From positions 13,032,023 through 13,096,022 of the forward strand of contig CM026433.1 of assembly GCA_014871385.1 (NCBI GenBank): a DNA stretch of 64,000 nucleotides, in the 5' to 3' direction. This document shows positions 14,131 to 36,437 of the stretch, piece by piece (the stretch's first letter is position 1; every line of letters begins with the position of its first letter). The stretch is from Ceratodon purpureus (taxonomy: Eukaryota > Streptophyta > Bryopsida > Pseudoditrichales > Ditrichaceae). Under the pieces are notes generated by a model that had not been told where the DNA came from, searched no databases, and saw nothing but the letters and a program-made list of their open reading frames with translations. The translations under genes and the position numbers were made by a program.

Positions 14131-15080
14131 TCATTGTGAAGTCATCTTGAGAAGTGGACATGAATTGAGGATTGGGAGAATCTCTCATTGGTGCTGAAAA
14201 CTTTAGTGAACAATGAGTGTTCATCGAAATGGAACATTGGTGTTACATGTTTGGAGTGTGACGACAGTTTGAACTATGTAGTAGAGGATGATTTAGAGGT
14301 ACAGTCGCCTACAAGATGTTTACATAATGCCTTTTAGTGGCATTCAAATATTTGTATACAACATACAATAAAATTAGTCCATGTTATCTTGCAAAATTAT
14401 CACTCAATTCTTAGCCAATCCCACTCAAGCATACCAAGTTTCAATTTCAAAAAAGTAGAATTCTAATTTTTGGTGGATTTATAAAGCCAATTTTTATGAA
14501 TTTATAATATATTTTGTTGAAAATAATTGGTGATGACTTTTTTAAATTTGATTGCAAAGGAACATACATACACGCATCTTTTGCATTAGAAATCACTCCA
14601 TTGAGAAACAAAGTTTTATTCTATGAAGAATTCAATGAAAATTTATTATGCAAATAAAAATGTAAAATAGACATTTCTTTAATGTAATTAGATTTTGGCA
14701 TTTTCTTCCTACATAGGAAATAATATTCTACATTCAAGCATGATCATGGTACTTTAACTTAAAACCGTCATCATAAATTACGCTCAAGAATGAACAAATG
14801 GACTCCAAAGTGCAACCAAGTGTGAACCAACGGCTCCTACTTTGATGACACCTCTAATATCCTTAACGAACCTTCCCACCGTCATCCCACCGCGGTCAAA
14901 CCCCCCTCACCCCTACAATCGAGCCCTCTTACCCCCTCTTCACAATACTACAACTCTATAGCCACTTTACTTTTGGGAGGGCCAAACTAGGTAGCCCAGC
15001 CAAAAACATAAGTCCTATTAATCTTTAGAAATACTAGGCTGAGTTTTCAAAAACCAAAAGCATCACTCCTATCTAATCTC

Positions 15081-15142
15081 CAAAAATATTGGAATGGGAT
15101 TTAATCAGTTGCAAAAATATTGGAATGGGATTTAATCAGTTG
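15081..15142. repeat. 31 bp tandem duplication
   Basis: The unit beginning CAAAAATATTGGAATGGGAT occurs twice without a mismatch at 15081-15111 and 15112-15142. A third, diverged copy of its core lies near 15194. Confidence 0.9.
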
Positions 15143-15400
15143 CAGCATTCTATAGTGTTGGAGTTTCACAAGTATTTTTAATATCTAATCTCCAAAAATA
15201 TTGAAATGGGATTTGATGTGTTGACGCTTTCTATAGTCTAGGAGTTTTAGAGTGGAAACTCCAACACAGTAGAAAGTTACAAACACATCTAATTGCCCAT
15301 GGCATTGTAGGGGTTTGAACAGGAGACCTCAGGGTTGGTTCCTGACAGCCTTTAAGCCCCTCCTCTTGCCTACCTTCATCTCATAGTTTAAGGTCATTTC

Positions 15401-15536
15401 GGACCAGCTGCTAGGGTTCTTGGTGTGGCCCATGTATTGGCAACCAATTAAGTTACTGATGTGAAAATGGACCAGCTGCTAGGGTTCTTGGTGTGGCCCA
15501 TGTATTGCAACCAATTTAATTACTGGTGTAAAAATA
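15401..15536. repeat. 68 bp tandem duplication
   Basis: Two units begin GGACCAGCTGCTAGGGTTCT, at 15401 and 15469, and differ at a few positions. Single copies of the same block occur near 16357 and 17445 and, inverted, near 34350. Confidence 0.85.
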
Positions 15537-16828
15537 AACCATCACTTCCTACACCAGCACATCAAAATGATTACCACAACATCTACAGTCACCTCACCCT
15601 TAAAACCAATCTAGTCAGTGCAATGAAAAAAACCATCTTTTTCCACACCAGGACACTAAAAATGATATGTTCCAACCTTCACAATACTACAGCTCTACAG
15701 CCACTTTACTTTTAGAAGGGCCGCACTCGGTAGCCCAGCCAAAAACATTAGGTCCTAGTAATCTCTGGAATCACTACGCTCAGATTTCAGAAGCAAAAAA
15801 AATAAAATCAGTCCTGTTAATCTCTAGAAATAGTAGGCTGAGTTTTCAGAAGCCAAAAACATATCTTATTTCTAAAAGTGGCCATTTTCACCATTTGAGC
15901 ATGTGCTCAAAGATTCCAACTCCACCTTGTTAATAATTACTTATTTCTATAGCCTACTACTATGCTCCCACCAAGTTCACCACACTACAAACATCTGCAC
16001 TCACTTCATCTTAAATCAACCTAATTACTGTAGTGAAAATCAACCATCCCTTCCCATACCAGCGCACTAAATATCAGTCCTATTAATCTTTGGAAATACT
16101 ACGTTGAGATTTTAAAATCTCCAAAAATATTGGAATGGAATTTGATTCTGCTTGAGTGTTCTATTGAATTGAACTTTCTACTGATAGATACTCGTGGAGT
16201 TTCTACTGATGTAGAAAGTTCACCATTCAACAGAAGGCTCAAACAGAATCACATCAAGTACTTCTAGCGAGTCGAACATGAGACCTCATGGTTGACTCTT
16301 GGGAGCTTTAAGCCCCTCCTCTTGCCTACCCTCATCTGCTAGTTTAAGGTCATTCTGGACCAGCTGCTCGGGTTTTTGAAGTGGCCTATGTATAAGCAAC
16401 CAATTCAGTTACTGATGTGAAAATAAACCATCACTTCCCACACCAGCACATCACAATGATATGTTCCCACTTCCACCCGACTACAACATCTAAAGTCACT
16501 TCACTCCTAAACCATCGTAGTCATTATAGTTAAAAAAACCATCACTTCTTATATCAAATCACAAAAATGATATGTTTCCACCTTCACATCTTATCTTATT
16601 TCTAAAAGTATTGGAATGGAATTTGATTCTGTTGCAGCATTGCACTGTATTTGAATTTATACTGCTTTCTATTGTGTTGGAATTTCTAGTAATGTAGAAA
16701 CTTGAACACACTACAATGCGACAACAAAATCACATCAAGTATTTGTTGCAAGTCCAACATGAGGCCCCATGGTTGACTCTTGGGAGCTTTAAGCCCCTCC
16801 TCTTGCCTACCCTCATTTGCTAGTTTAA

Positions 16829-17430
16829 CCCCTAAAGGTTCTGGAAATCCAAAATGGCTCTCGGCTGTTTTGGACAGCCTAAATGAAGGGATTAAAAGTA
16901 ATATTTATGCCTAAGAATTTTAATGGATGCTCCCTATACCGCAAGGTGTATGTGATAAAATTTTGAGAGCCAAATTTCACTTTTAGAACCTGCCTCTGGA
17001 AATTTTAGGTTTCAAGTCGAAAACGAGCAGTTTAAAATTAGATTATTTTGGATTTTGTTTTTGAAATGTATTCATAACCAATTTACTACTCAAAATCCGA
17101 AGTTACCTACAAGAAAAAAAGTATGAGCAAAATGTTTGGAGTAACAATCATCAAGTTTGCCTTGGCACCATTTAGAGTATGCTTTTCACTCAAAGCCAAA
17201 AAAATATATATAAAAAATCAGTAGACTTTGAACGTTATAATCTCACAAATATTAAAGATCCAACCGTTGAAATTTCACATGATATTAGTGCAGGTAGTTA
17301 GGTTCAAGATCTTACGGTTGGATGTATCAAAAAAGTAAAAAAATAAGAATCATACTCCAACTTCTACAAGGTTGTCAAAAATCACAGTTTTTGGTTTTGG
17401 AGGTCCAAAAACGGCTTGAACCTTTAGGGG
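16829..17430. mobile_element. TTAA-flanked TIR element, family A, copy 2
   Basis: A 602 bp element bounded by a perfect 13-base inverted repeat (CCCCTAAAGGTTC / GAACCTTTAGGGG) and by TTAA on each side (16825-16828 and 17431-17434). The flanks rejoin exactly: TAGTTTAAGGTCATT is uninterrupted at about 15385 and 16341 and, inverted, at about 34373. These act as empty sites, so the element added itself plus one TTAA. The interior resembles copies 1 and 4 (pairs such as GTATGTG and AGATCTTACGGTT) but is shorter. Confidence 0.85.
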
Positions 17431-18415
17431 TTAAGGTCATTTCGGACCAGCTGCTTGGGTTTTTGGTGTGGCTCATATATTGGCAACCAATTTCGTTATT
17501 GATGTGAAAATAAACCATCACTTCCCAGACCAGCACATCAAAATGATATGTTCTCACATCCACCACATTACACCATCTAAAGTCACTTTACTCCTAAACC
17601 ATAGTAGTTACTATAGTTAAAAAATAAAACCATCACTTCCTACACCAAATCACAAAAATAATTTGATCCCACCTTCACATCTTACCACAGCTACAATCAC
17701 TTTAGAAACTAAAGTAAAAATAAACCATCATACTAAGGGCCGCTTTTCATTAAGGAGCCGGGCCTATTCAACCCGTTTGAAGGCTTAAATTCCCCCTTTT
17801 AATTGGCTAAGAGACTGAAATTGCCACCAACTTCTTTACATTTAGAGGCCGAGCCAATTTGGTGGTATGAATATTTTAATTAGAAAATGCAAGTTTTAAC
17901 ATGGCCCCAGCTTGGTGTGTTGGATGCACCGAGAATGGAAGGCCAATTCTAGGCTTTGGGGCCAATGTGAGATTTGATTAAAAAAACCCTTTATAATAAA
18001 AAACACTTTTCTCTCAACTACTCAAATCCATTTGCGACACTGCAGGGAATTAAGACCTCCGCCTCACGGCTACTACGAAAGTGCCTACTAGATGTCATCC
18101 ACCTTTTCAAGTATTCCCTCCTTCATGTCCATCATCCATAATTCATTGTTTTTGTACTTACATCATTGTTGAAATTGTCAGCTCATATACCATTAGGAGG
18201 CCAAATGAAGCCTGAATCCATTTCCTTATTATATTTTTTTGGTCTATATATAAGATGTGCAAGTATAGATACGTGGTTGGAGTTATATTCTTGTGTGATT
18301 GCGGCGATTCCTAGACTTAATTAAACTTTGCAATATTGCATTATTTCCATAACATGTCGCACCGCAATGACGAACACAAGAACCATAAATATATGTATGG
18401 GCCATACATACATAC

Positions 18416-30934: not shown

Positions 30935-33900
30935 TTCACCAGGAGGGCGTAGTTTAATAGGTGAAAAACCACTTCTATGCTAATAATGACCATGGTCCTC
31001 ACCCGAGTCCTTTACGTAGGTTAATAATGACCATGTGTGAGCCTTCTTCATCTAACTATGCCCTTGTGGTGAATGCTTATTTCCATGAACCACCTTGGTC
31101 CAGGAGCTTACCCTGCATAAAAGACAAGGACTTCAAAATAGAAAAAGGTTCAGTAGAAAAGGGTGGTTATGAAATGTAACATCACATTATAGATTTTTTT
31201 GACCCCGCTTAACCCTTAAAGGACAATCATCCACATTTGGACTTTTTAAGAATTTGGGCATGTACTTGTGACTTCAATTTAACCCCTAAACAGCCATTTT
31301 CCTGGAATGGGTGTTTTTTGAATTTGAAAAAAATATTTTCTTTGAACTTTAAATGTTATTATCTTTCAATCCGTGTACTCAAAAATGCCCAAAAAATCCA
31401 GATATTTGTTGAAACAATCCTATCTGAGATCCTACGATTAAAAATTTAAAATAAAAATTTCATTTTGACAATTACTCCTTGAAGTAGAAATGGCAGATTT
31501 TTGACATTTTTTATTGAAATTTAGTGATGGCCGATTGGAGGTTAAGTCGTGCTTTTTTGAAACTTTTTGTGAATGTAGGCCGCGACAAGGACTTTGAGGG
31601 AATCTTTTTTTTTTTCCCAATTATACTTTTAAAAAAATAATTGTGGTACCTGAAGTGAAATTTTGTATTCAGTGGGCAATTCGGACAGCCATGCTAAATA
31701 CATTTGTTGCCTCTGAGTTGTTTTCTCCAAATACTTGATGTTGTCATCTCTGAGATTTCCCTGAAAAAACTTTTTTTCAGTACAAAATGTTCATTCCACA
31801 AAATATCAAAGTTTTCTCACCGTTTCGGGCAGTGTTCTAAAAACACTTCTTCTTTCCTTCATAAAAATTAGAATTTTTTAATTTTTTTTTAAGGATTTTT
31901 CTTTTTTTCACTTAAAAGATTGACATCAATCTTAGATTTGACCGTTTGGATTGGGACTTCATAACATAATCGAATTTCCACGATAGAAATTTGAATTAGC
32001 ACTCTTTTATATTTAACTTCATAAAAATATTTTTTCCGACATGATATACATGTCTTTTGTGTGTAAATTTTTTTATACAATTAGCTAACTTAGTTGTTAT
32101 TGTCATGCACCAAAACCTCCAAAATCCATACTACAAAAAACCTAAAGAAAATAAAGTTGGAGTGTGTCGACCTAGTAAAAAATCGTGTCAAAAAAGTTTG
32201 TTTTTTAATTTCAATCGCATTAATCTTCTAATCTCTACGGTCAATTATGATGAGATTTTTTGAGATATTTACTACAATAATCTCATTGAAGATCTTACGG
32301 TTATAATTAGAAAATAATGATTTTTAGTCATTCATGCATTTTGCATTCAAAATGGCAGTTTTGAAGTGTTATTTGTTGAAACATAGTCAATGAACTTTAG
32401 GGGTTAATAACTTTAGTCCGCTGGGGAATATTATTTGATATAAGATAAAATTTTTTACACTCAAAAATCTCCATGAGTCCTTAACGTAGGTGAGAAACCA
32501 CTTCTTCGCTAATAATAATGTTAAACTATTTGGAGTGCGAACAGTGTGAAAGATGGGCTAGCAACTCAAGTTGGAAATATCATTAGATGGGGTCACTTTA
32601 GGGCCAATTTTCCTTGGAGCCGATTGCTTGAAATTTCAACCCATTTTTAGGTTGGGGCTCGCCTCAAGTCCCCATTACAATAAGATTATAACGGACGCCG
32701 ATTTTCGAATATGTAAGGCCTTCGAGCCAAGAAGCCAGGCCGATCCAATAAATGTAGAAATTTCCAACCCTTCTTTTTCTCTTTTCATTGCCATTTGTAC
32801 AAAATGGATGAACAAAAGTATAAGATTTTAATGGTTCTTGTCTTCGTCATTGCGGTGCAACATGTTATGGATATAATGCAATATTGCAAAGTTTGATTAA
32901 GTCTAAGAATCATGGCAATCACACAAGAATATAACTTCAACCACGTATCTACACTTGGGCAATGGTAAACTTGGGGTATCACTTTTTGGACACACTAATT
33001 AGATTATTTTTGTTTAAAACCATCAAAGTTTGTCTAATTTGTTCATTTCAATCAAGTAAAAAGACCCTAAAATGGAAAGTAAGAAATCATGCACCTCAAT
33101 GGAATCAAAACATGTATGTCTACAGAGTTTTTTTTGAAAAAAAATAATTTTTTGTATCCATTTGTAGATGAGGAAAAAAAAGATGAATTTTGGGATTTGC
33201 AAGCATTATAGTGCATAATTAACTAATTTTTTAAATAATGAAATAAATTATTTTATACTTTACACAATTAGATGTAGATTATATTCAAAAATAATATAAA
33301 AATAAAATTGCTTGATATTCCATTTGCTTGATTCTATGGATTTTTAGGTTAGGTGGACATAACTTACTTTTTCAACTAAAAAATCAAATCGAATTACTTC
33401 AAAATCTTTGATTATTTTTTATTTTATTTTTTTCTTGATACGTTAGAAGTACAGAGAACTAAAACCACATCTAATGAAGTCTTACTTTATTAAAATTAAA
33501 ATATGGATTTTTTGAAACACCAGCATTGAGTGCAATTGTTCATGGATACCCGAAGCTTACCATTGCCCACTTGCACATCTTATATATATACCAAAAAATA
33601 ATAAGGAAGTGGATTTGGGCTTCATTTGGCCTCCAAAAGGTATATAAGCTGAAAATTCTAGCAATGATTTAAGTACAAAAACAATGAATTATGGATGGTG
33701 TACATGAAGTGGAAGGAAGGAAAAGGTGGATGACATCCAGTAGACACTTTCTTCGTAGCCGTGAGGCGAAGGTCTTAATATCCTGCAGTTTCTCAAATGG
33801 ATTTGGTTGGTTGAGAGAAAAGTGTTTTTTATTACAAAAGGTTTTTTTAGTCAAATCTGACATTGGTCTCAAAGCCTAGGATTGGCCTTCCATTCTTGGT

Positions 33901-35175
33901 GCATCCAACTCACCAAGCTCGGGCCATGTCATAACTTGAATTTTCTAATTAAAATATTCATACCACCAAATTTGCTCGGCGTGTAAGTGTAAAGACGTTG
34001 GGGCCAATTTCACCCCTCCAATAGGTTGAATTAGCCAGGCCCCTTGATGAAATCAGCCCTTAGTCTAATGGTTTATTTTCACTTCAGTTTCTAAATTGGT
34101 TGCTAGGTAAAGTGACAGTTGTTGTGGTAAGATGTGAAGGTGAGAATATATCATTTTTGTGATTTGGTATGGGAAGTGATGGTTTTTTTTAACTATAATG
34201 ACTAGAATGGTTTAGGAGTGAAGTGACTTTAGATGTTGTAGTCTAGTGGAGGTGGGAACATATCATTGTGATGTGCTGGTGTGGGAAGTGATGGTTTATT
34301 TTCACATCAGTAATTGAATTGATTGCTTATACATAGGCCACTTCAAAAACCCGAGCAGCTGGTCCAGAATGACCTTAAACTAGCAGATGAGGGTAGGCAA
34401 GAGGAGGGGCTTAAAGCTCCCAAGAGTCAACCATGAGGTCTCATGTTCGACTCGCTACAAATACTTGATGTGATTCTGTTTGAGCCTTCTGGTGGATCGT
34501 GAACTTTCTACATCAGTAGAAACTCCACCAGTATCTACCAGTAGAAAGTTCAATCCAGTAGAACACTCCAGCAGAATCAAATTCCATTCCAATATTTTTG
34601 GAGATTTTAATATCTCAGCGTAGTATTTTCAAAGATTAATAGGATTGATATTTTTGGCTAGGCTACCCGGTGTGGCTGCAGAGTTATAGTATTGTGAAGT
34701 TTGGAACATATCATTTTTAGTGTGTTGGTATGGGAAGGGATGGTTGATTTTCACTACAATAACTAGGTTGATTTAAAATGAGGTGAGTGTAGATGTTTGT
34801 CAGTGTAGTGAACTTGGTGGGAGCATAGTAGTAGGCTATAGAAATAAGTAATTATTAATAAGGTGGAGTTGGAATCTTTGAGCAGGTGCCCAAATGGTAA
34901 AAATGGCCACTTAAGGCTTTGGAATTGCCACTTGGAAGGGGGTGTTGACGTGGGTGTAAGAGGGCTCGGTTGTAGGTGTGAGGGGGGTGTGAACGTGGAG
35001 GGGTGATGATTAGAAGGGGACGTGGAAGTGATGTTGGGTGGGAAGGTCTGTCAGGGATTTTAGATGTGTCATCAAAGTAGGAGGGGTTTGTTCATACTTG
35101 GTTGCAATTTGGAGTCCATTTGTCAAATTTTGAGCGTCATTTATGGTGACACTTTAAAGTTAAAGTGGGTTGTAA
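30935..35175. repeat. Family B repeat, right copy (inverted relative to 0.9-1.9 kb and 14.8-18.4 kb)
   Basis: Reading the minus strand from 35175 downward, segments match about 14760-14940, 16000-16600, 17690-18290 and then 928-1893, with gaps. The block CCATGAGGTCTCATGTTCGA near 34430 is the inverted form of the one near 16270. The copy is interrupted at about 31180-32450 by foreign sequence including a TTAA element. No coding region was found. Several hairpins of the GTAGAAAGTTC type lie inside both copies. Confidence 0.65.
31283..32403. mobile_element. Probable TTAA-flanked element, family A, copy 3 (nested)
   Basis: The left end is TTAA-CCCCTAAACAGCC and the right end TGAACTTTAGGGG-TTAA, an inverted repeat of only 8 bases (CCCCTAAA). 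It carries AAGATCTTACGGTTATAAT near 32287, shared with the other family A copies. It lies within sequence that interrupts family B. A second TTAACCC at 31210 makes the left border uncertain. Confidence 0.5.
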
Positions 35176-35519
35176 AAATATATTAGAATATAAAGTTAAG
35201 TTTTTAGAGAGTTCTAGTAAGAGGTTTGTAAGCTTAAAGAAGAAGTCCGAGGTAAAGATAATTTCAACCTCCATCTAATTTGATTTGTATTGAATTTCTA
35301 AGTGTGCCTCTTCTACAACTTACCTTCTTTATTTTCCCATTTAAATTCCAAGTTTATCCCTTATTTAATTCCATTGTTCCATCTTTAATTCATATTTTCT
35401 ATATACCACCTTCCTCGCCCTCCCCCACCCAATTTTGTTTCCTTTGGTTCTCTCCTATAACTAAATTTTCCACCACCATCTTTGAACTTCAACTAAAAAC
35501 TTCAACCGGGAACTACTAA

Positions 35520-36433
35520 CTCCTAAAAATCCAGCCGGTTTTGGAGGTTCCAAAACCCAAAACAGCCATTTTTGACCACGTTGTGGGAACTACGGTTTGG
35601 ACCAAAAACAATACTTTTTTTAGACATCCAACTGTAAGATCTTGTACTTTACCTTCTTTAGAAGTACTAATAAAAATTTCAGCTGTTGGATGTTTACCAT
35701 CTTTGAGATTATAACATTCAAAGTTGCAAGCAAAACTTTTCTTGGGCGTTGCTCAAATGACATAGTCAAAATGGTGCAAACGGAGAGTTGAAGATTTTTA
35801 CCCCAAACATTTTGCTCATATTTTTTTCCATGTAGGTAATCAAGTTGGGTACCTCCATGCAAAATTTTAGAGACTCATTCCCTTTTTAGAACCTTCATAA
35901 AAATTGTTTTCTAGAAGCAGGTCTAAAAACATTGATATCGTAAATTATGTATGACGTTACGTATACTTGGTTTTAGAAAATCTAAACAGTGGCTAGGTGC
36001 CTTTATAATTTTTTAATTTTTGGACGAAATTATTTTGAAAATTTTCAAATCTCAAATTTTGACGAATTTTGAAAGAAATAATTCAAAAATTTGAAGCTTA
36101 TCTTTGTTATTTTTAAAGGTTGCCCTTGTAAAATTGGTATATTTTTTGACTTGGGTCTCTTTGGAATTTAAGTGGTGATTTGGTTATGAATGTATTTCAA
36201 GATTTTTTTAAAAAAAAAGTGGAATTTTATGCTGCCCGTTTTGGACTTGAAACCTAAAATTTCTAGATGAAGGTCTTAAAATTAGAATTTGGCTTAAATT
36301 TTTTTACCACATACACCTTGCAGTATAAAGAGCATCCAATAAAAATCTTAGGGAAAAATATTAATTTTAACCCCTTCATCTTGGCTGCCCGAAATCGCAA
36401 AAAGCCGTTTTGGCTTTCCTGGATTTTTAGGGG
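35520..36433. mobile_element. TTAA-flanked TIR element, family A, copy 4 (inverted)
   Basis: The ends are CTCCTAAAAATCC and GGATTTTTAGGGG, a 13-base inverted repeat with one mismatch. TTAA follows at 36434-36437; on the left the matching four bases are CTAA, one change from TTAA. The 914 bp body is the reverse complement of copy 1 (5-923) with scattered differences, for example CCTTCATCTTGGCTGCCC against its complement near 45-65. Confidence 0.7.
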
Positions 36434-36437
36434 TTAA

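Follow-up and report, generated by a model that had tools for sequence, protein, structure and literature searches.

A TTAA-inserted short element of probable piggyBac descent in the moss Ceratodon purpureus, and transposase-bearing relatives of its kind in the same genome

Which transposon superfamily placed a short element without a transposase exactly at TTAA in a moss genome? The question is raised by positions 16825-17434 of the window (the whole stretch of 64,000 nucleotides analysed here), which consist of 602 bp between two TTAA (Table 1). An earlier note on this DNA favoured TTAA-specific insertion of the piggyBac type, i.e., by a superfamily best known from animals, and gave a 3-base TTA/TAA duplication of the PIF/Harbinger type as the alternative.

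The element and its empty sites

The ends form a perfect inverted repeat (16825-16841 and 17418-17434) of 17 nt with TTAA counted, and therefore of 13 nt inside the 602-bp element. The earlier note had described the same length, perfect 13-base ends and exact placement at TTAA, and all of this holds. It had also regarded the ends as no standard match to piggyBac, a point that calls for correction: they are close to the pattern in the accessible part of PMC2872659, where piggyBac elements have terminal repeats of 12-19 bp, the motif CC[C/T]T and duplicated TTAA. The family of the window element has 13-nt ends with the motif one base in (C-CCCT), and the strict terminal position is off by one. 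None of the four open frames touching the element exceeds 63 aa (40-63 aa). The element is short, lacks a transposase, has many copies and has ends that resemble those of 6-kb elements of the same genome, as is typical of a MITE.

Table 1. Features of the window that bear on the element at 16829-17430 and its relatives.
Feature	Position	Strand
TTAA target duplication, left	16825..16828	
602-bp element, almost certainly a non-autonomous piggyBac element (MITE), internally deleted from a family of ~920-940 bp	16829..17430	
13-nt terminal inverted repeat, left, CCCCTAAAGGTTC	16829..16841	+
13-nt terminal inverted repeat, right	17418..17430	-
TTAA target duplication, right	17431..17434	
Internal-deletion junction relative to full-length copies; two BLAST pieces overlap there	17101..17109	
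Second family member, 73.7% to full-length copy L020 over 954 columns, TTAACCCCTAAAAA...TTTTTAGGGATTAA	1..927	
Third family member, 73.1% to L020 over 954 columns	35517..36437	
Short element with ends matching those of the transposase-bearing L039 element (different piggyBac family)	31279..32407	
Empty site, single TTAA, related host repeat	15388..15391	
Empty site, single TTAA, related host repeat	16344..16347	
Empty site, single TTAA, related inverted host repeat	34375..34378	

With the element removed, the joined flanks align unbroken across the junction to three other stretches of the window: 34605-34062 (549 columns, 80.7%), 16117-16593 (483 columns, 82.4%) and 15318-15474 (157 columns, 85.4%). 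These alignments bear out the homologous stretches reported previously at about 15385, 16341 and, inverted, 34373, which lack the element and have one TTAA each. The recipient host repeat (window 15063-17704 and 34062-34795) is itself clustered, with more copies nearby on C13 and elsewhere.

A family of short elements and its target duplications

We searched one genome, of 362,488,568 bases in 151 contigs. The sequence TTAACCCCTAAAGG occurs 1399 + 1444 times in these 362 Mb, far above chance (reversed control, 0 + 2). The 13-nt end CCCCTAAAGGTTC has 520 occurrences (258 + 262), compared with 17 (12 + 5) for its reversed control, and directly follows TTAA in 476 of the 520 (91.5%, 241 + 235). 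A DNA search with the element gave 77 pieces for the best 40 of 1965 candidates, mostly pairs bracketing a centre that is absent from the window copy.

Twenty copies were fetched and 18 of them aligned, leaving out L022 and L028, which have no recognisable end pair. Lengths including TTAA were 916-943 bp in 17 of the 18 copies and 641 bp in L019. The deletion in the window element amounts to 322 bp absent by BLAST relative to L020, or to 333 alignment columns relative to the majority (245 + 88, effectively one block). In L019 the missing block is another one; a short subfamily of these two copies defined by the deletion was rejected, as the deletion boundaries differ. Elsewhere, at L075 (C2:2432200-2434000, positions 47-1756), a full and a partial copy in opposite orientation form a compound unit of 1710 bp with family ends on both outsides.

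Identity to the majority was at least 97.8% in 14 of the 18 copies, 90.6-95.6% in the other four and 90.7% in the window copy. This sample is not random, its copies having been ranked by how closely they match the window copy, and young copies set its majority. Even so, the figures reveal young copies within the family, the window copy not being one of them. Diverged and without a long reading frame, the window copy probably inserted long ago and no longer moves.

The target duplications of the 18 aligned copies discriminate between the two readings that were proposed for the site. They were TTAA/TTAA in 16 copies, ATAA/ATAA in one and TTAT/TTAT in one. Duplications other than TTAA, which the earlier note had listed as contrary evidence, are thus present in two of the 18, but their form supports a 4-bp duplication. 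If the element were a PIF/Harbinger (Tourist-like) MITE, a 3-bp TTA/TAA duplication would merely look like TTAA, and one copy alone cannot discriminate because TTAA is palindromic; PF13359 transposases are also plentiful in this genome (best 150 of 596 candidates). However, ATAA/ATAA and TTAT/TTAT are non-palindromic direct repeats of 4 bp, which cannot arise from a 3-bp duplication. Hence, 4 bp were duplicated and the Harbinger-type duplication is excluded. Moreover, such ends were found at none of six Harbinger loci (in flanks of ~1.5 kb per side, where Harbinger's own end pairs were not found either), and both ends of the element resemble piggyBac elements. A Harbinger origin is therefore extremely improbable.

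The same TTAA is also filled by a family member, oriented as in the window, in a further host-repeat copy (L087, C2:22051700-22053600, positions 476-1416). This second filled copy is what one would see if host repeat and element had been copied together, in which case the empty copies would be excision products, or the element would have arrived as a passenger. In addition, the C2 copy has four of 22 rarer states (present in at most five of 20 copies) in common with the window copy. Yet it measures 941 bp from TTAA to TTAA and lacks the deletion of the window copy. Of the 12 states found in the window copy and in exactly one further copy, the C2 copy has none. The genome also holds the 476 exact ends at TTAA. 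We consider joint copying unlikely. The two insertions into this TTAA are probably independent, the evidence leaning this way short of proof.

Transposase-bearing elements with similar ends

The profile of the piggyBac transposase domain (PF13843) gave matches above the curated cut-off for all 116 of the best 116 of 998 candidates. Counted by eye, 93 of these 116 had a domain free of stops, and many open frames were near 1000 aa. Paired TTAACCC-type inverted ends were found around the transposase at 15 of the 22 loci inspected.

Three of four transposase matches with equal score were fetched (C1:21386739 was left out). They lie in elements of 6122, 6548 and 6408 bp on C5, C6 and C1, respectively, which have TTAACCCCTAAA on both sides and transposase frames of 923-952 aa. 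The C5 and C1 elements match at 99.1% over 4964 columns and 99.5% over 1184 columns; the C6 element matches that of C5 at 99.2% over 3164 columns and at 93-94% elsewhere. Their mutual similarity starts and stops at TTAA to within 7 bases, and the flanks outside differ.

These three elements share with the window family 12 identical nt of the end (TTAA included) and a subterminal similarity of ~70-72% on one side, weaker on the other. By BLAST, the right end of the window copy matched their left end over 216 columns (72%, E 4e-23), and its left end had no match at E 1e-3. The full-length copy L023 matched them over 338 columns (E 1e-31) and, with its other end, over 63 columns at equal distance from the tip (E 5e-5). 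Relative to 300 two-base-block shuffles, the right end of the window copy scored z 14.7 with the corresponding end and -0.1 with the opposite one, and the left end 6.1 and 1.5. The two other family members of the window gave z of 13.4 and 7.9 (1-927) and of 12.9 and 9.8 (35517-36437) with the corresponding ends, and -2.1 to 1.6 with the opposite ends. Given the 12-nt tip and the partial subterminal similarity, the C5, C6 and C1 elements are cousins of the window family, not its direct parent.

We found no transposase-bearing element with the exact CCCCTAAAGGTTC end in the genome. Among the first 100 of the 476 TTAA-preceded ends listed, inspection by eye, which would miss an imperfect end, revealed no neighbouring pair at transposase size. 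The earlier note had proposed a search for a transposase between the same ends. This search supports the TTAA-specific, piggyBac-type insertion favoured at the outset: DDD transposases matching PF13843 lie within closely similar ends, although none was found within the exact 13-nt end.

Five other loci were rejected as parents: L041 (a 938-bp family copy followed at some distance by an unrelated end), L042 (a different element of 2268 bp with similar ends), L043 (three short elements), and L044 and L045 (family members split by additional sequence). The transposase of L039, a locus of another piggyBac family, had no tblastn match in any of the five. The MITE had no BLAST match to the L039 element at E 1e-3 and, outside the tips, the family ends resembled none of those of L039, L040, L047, L049 and L051 (z -1.6 to 1.7). 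The direct parent may have been lost, or the cousin family may be sufficient.

In L039, a stretch of 5337 bp from TTAACCCCTAAAGT to CCTTTAGGGGTTAA surrounds the transposase, with TTAACCCCTAAAG on both sides; L039 and L040 were chosen for an end nearby and are thus a biased sample. Ten more loci of the L039 class were chosen by rank and profile coverage, not by their ends, and fetched with narrow flanks: eight of them were framed by correctly oriented TTAACCCCTAA-type ends, and two had such an end on one side only. Other transposase families have ends of their own, namely those of L047 (3902 bp, TTAACCCTTAAACGTCA, with CCCTTAAACG at the tip), L049 (4637 bp, TTAACCCCCTAAC) and L051 (5122 bp, TTAACCCCTCAA). 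No end pair was recognised at seven of the 22 loci, where flanks of 2-4 kb were perhaps too short for some: L040 and two of the ten further loci had one end only, and no end was found at L046 and L050, nor at L076 and L077 (~2-3 kb flank). Outside this count, L010, L011, L014 and L016 had no such end within 1.5 kb of flank.

The short elements in L043 match the ends of L039 and L040, and MITEs have hence arisen from more than one piggyBac family here. The window itself has piggyBac-type ends in the same orientation at 31209 and 31279, 70 bases apart, with the opposite end at 32407; they belong to another family than the main element, and 31209-32407 perhaps represents nested or chimeric insertions.

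The proteins carry the marks of piggyBac transposases. The aspartate motifs of the catalytic triad were present in 20 of 21, 21 of 21 and 21 of 21 open frames, and the sole miss was a frame fragment. In an alignment of 15 sequences, D201, D294, D412 and D415 were invariant, as was C535 among the C-terminal cysteines, with C514, C517, C526, C529 and C540 near-invariant. The accessible text of PMC7351741 gives D268, D346 and D447 as the catalytic triad of piggyBac; in the alignment of the L039 protein with 6x67, aspartates stand in the corresponding motifs (the matching of numbers to columns is ours). Sequence matches in the PDB were piggyBat (E 3.8e-27) and piggyBac (4.6e-25), and a profile search of solved structures at E 0.001 retrieved only piggyBac (5.7e-66) and piggyBat (2.8e-65). 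The predicted model of the L072 protein (mean pLDDT 77.5, with lower values towards the C-terminus; pTM 0.76) was matched by Foldseek to 6x67 (piggyBac, 7.0e-24) and 9c0f (piggyBat, 1.4e-23), with TM 0.61-0.62 on the query and rmsd 13-19, and next to Tn5 (1.8e-6). As modelled, it is a piggyBac transposase fold with a cysteine-rich C-terminal domain.

Kolobok elements duplicate TTAA as well, and the target site would suit them or another TTAA-duplicating superfamily. The transposases between matching ends are nevertheless of the PF13843 type, and their best sequence and fold matches are piggyBac and piggyBat, which makes such an origin very improbable.

The systems represented by piggyBac (6x67) and Myotis piggyBat (9c0f) resemble the present one in the TTAA duplication, the short CCC-rich inverted ends, the DDD residues, the fold and the C-terminal cysteine-rich domain. 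They differ in that the host here is a land plant, that the paired-end elements measured whole span 3.9-6.5 kb with open frames of ~800-1090 aa, that 430-464 aa precede the domain in the two frames checked, and that identity to 6x67 and 9c0f is 21-22%. The stretch ahead of PF13843 (464 aa in L039, 430 aa in L072) has no Pfam match at E 0.001, and the L039 frame opens with a region rich in proline and serine.

We conclude that 16829-17430 is almost certainly a TTAA-inserted MITE of the piggyBac superfamily, internally deleted from a piggyBac element that has relatives with long open transposase frames in the genome. A member of the ~920-940 bp family would have lost ~320-333 bp of its interior to give the 602-bp MITE. 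A piggyBac transposase made elsewhere would bind its CCCCTAAAGG ends, cut it out and insert it at a new TTAA, which would be duplicated. With the ends and TTAA but no transposase of its own, the window element would move in trans; we infer that the transposase that moved it was probably of the C5, C6 and C1 kind. For piggyBac, the available part of PMC7351741 describes a transposase that synapses both ends, forms hairpins on TTAA, excises without a footprint and integrates at TTAA.

piggyBac in a moss genome

Short elements assigned to piggyBac have been described in other hosts. The CMITEs of corals, as far as the accessible text of PMC2872659 goes, are likewise short and in many copies, with TTAA duplication and inverted ends, but they are ~100 bp long, whereas full-length copies here measure ~916-943 bp with TTAA, in a different host. 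The mPok elements of Pokey (PMC4912750, in part) are comparable in piggyBac class and MITE name, which is what that excerpt gives, and their host differs. Angiosperm MITEs have been classed as piggyBac in PMC10004981, whose consulted part gives the class name alone; unlike these, the moss family has transposase-bearing elements with matching ends in the same genome.

Other mentions of piggyBac from land plants are likewise thin: one 75-bp match is given for a grass (PMC8319324) and 122 kb, or 0.00%, for a fern assembly (PMC6890710); a survey names plants among its sources, without detail in the part available (PMC10813416). We found no paper on moss piggyBac elements among the matches listed in open-licence PubMed Central, and an earlier record may exist in the Ceratodon genome paper. 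The window element belongs to a known kind; it is the host and the scale (many open frames and 99%-identical dispersed elements) that lift it above routine.

According to the accessible part of PMC8000587, C. purpureus has a genome of 360 Mb with U and V sex chromosomes of more than 100 Mb each, ~30% of the genome. The SAM domain of LEAFY, which is typical of plants, is present in the genome analysed here and was missing from 14 control genomes. C6, with 110.5 Mb and 30.5% of the assembly, is by good inference a putative sex chromosome. It holds 19 of the 116 best piggyBac transposase matches, 4 of the 40 best MITE matches and 47 of the 150 best Harbinger matches (C6 matches counted by eye). 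In these best-scoring subsets, the piggyBac deficit gave binomial values of 0.0004 (transposase) and 0.002 (MITE), and a Fisher value of 0.006 for piggyBac versus Harbinger. piggyBac copies thus seem scarce on C6.

The near-identical dispersed elements hint, by their sequences, at recent jumping. Several transposase families with long open frames and TTAA-flanked ends of their own, MITE ends in the hundreds, near-identical dispersed copies and a lower copy number on the putative sex chromosome leave the case evenly balanced for a moss genome in the middle of a piggyBac expansion, in which at least one family may still move. If this is true, the moss would have an endogenous land-plant piggyBac system. 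Over a hundred scored transposases, long open frames and dispersed 99%-identical elements make piggyBac activity in plants directly testable. The same genome also allows tests of the route by which piggyBac arrived, and of whether plants have their own version of a widely used genome-engineering tool.
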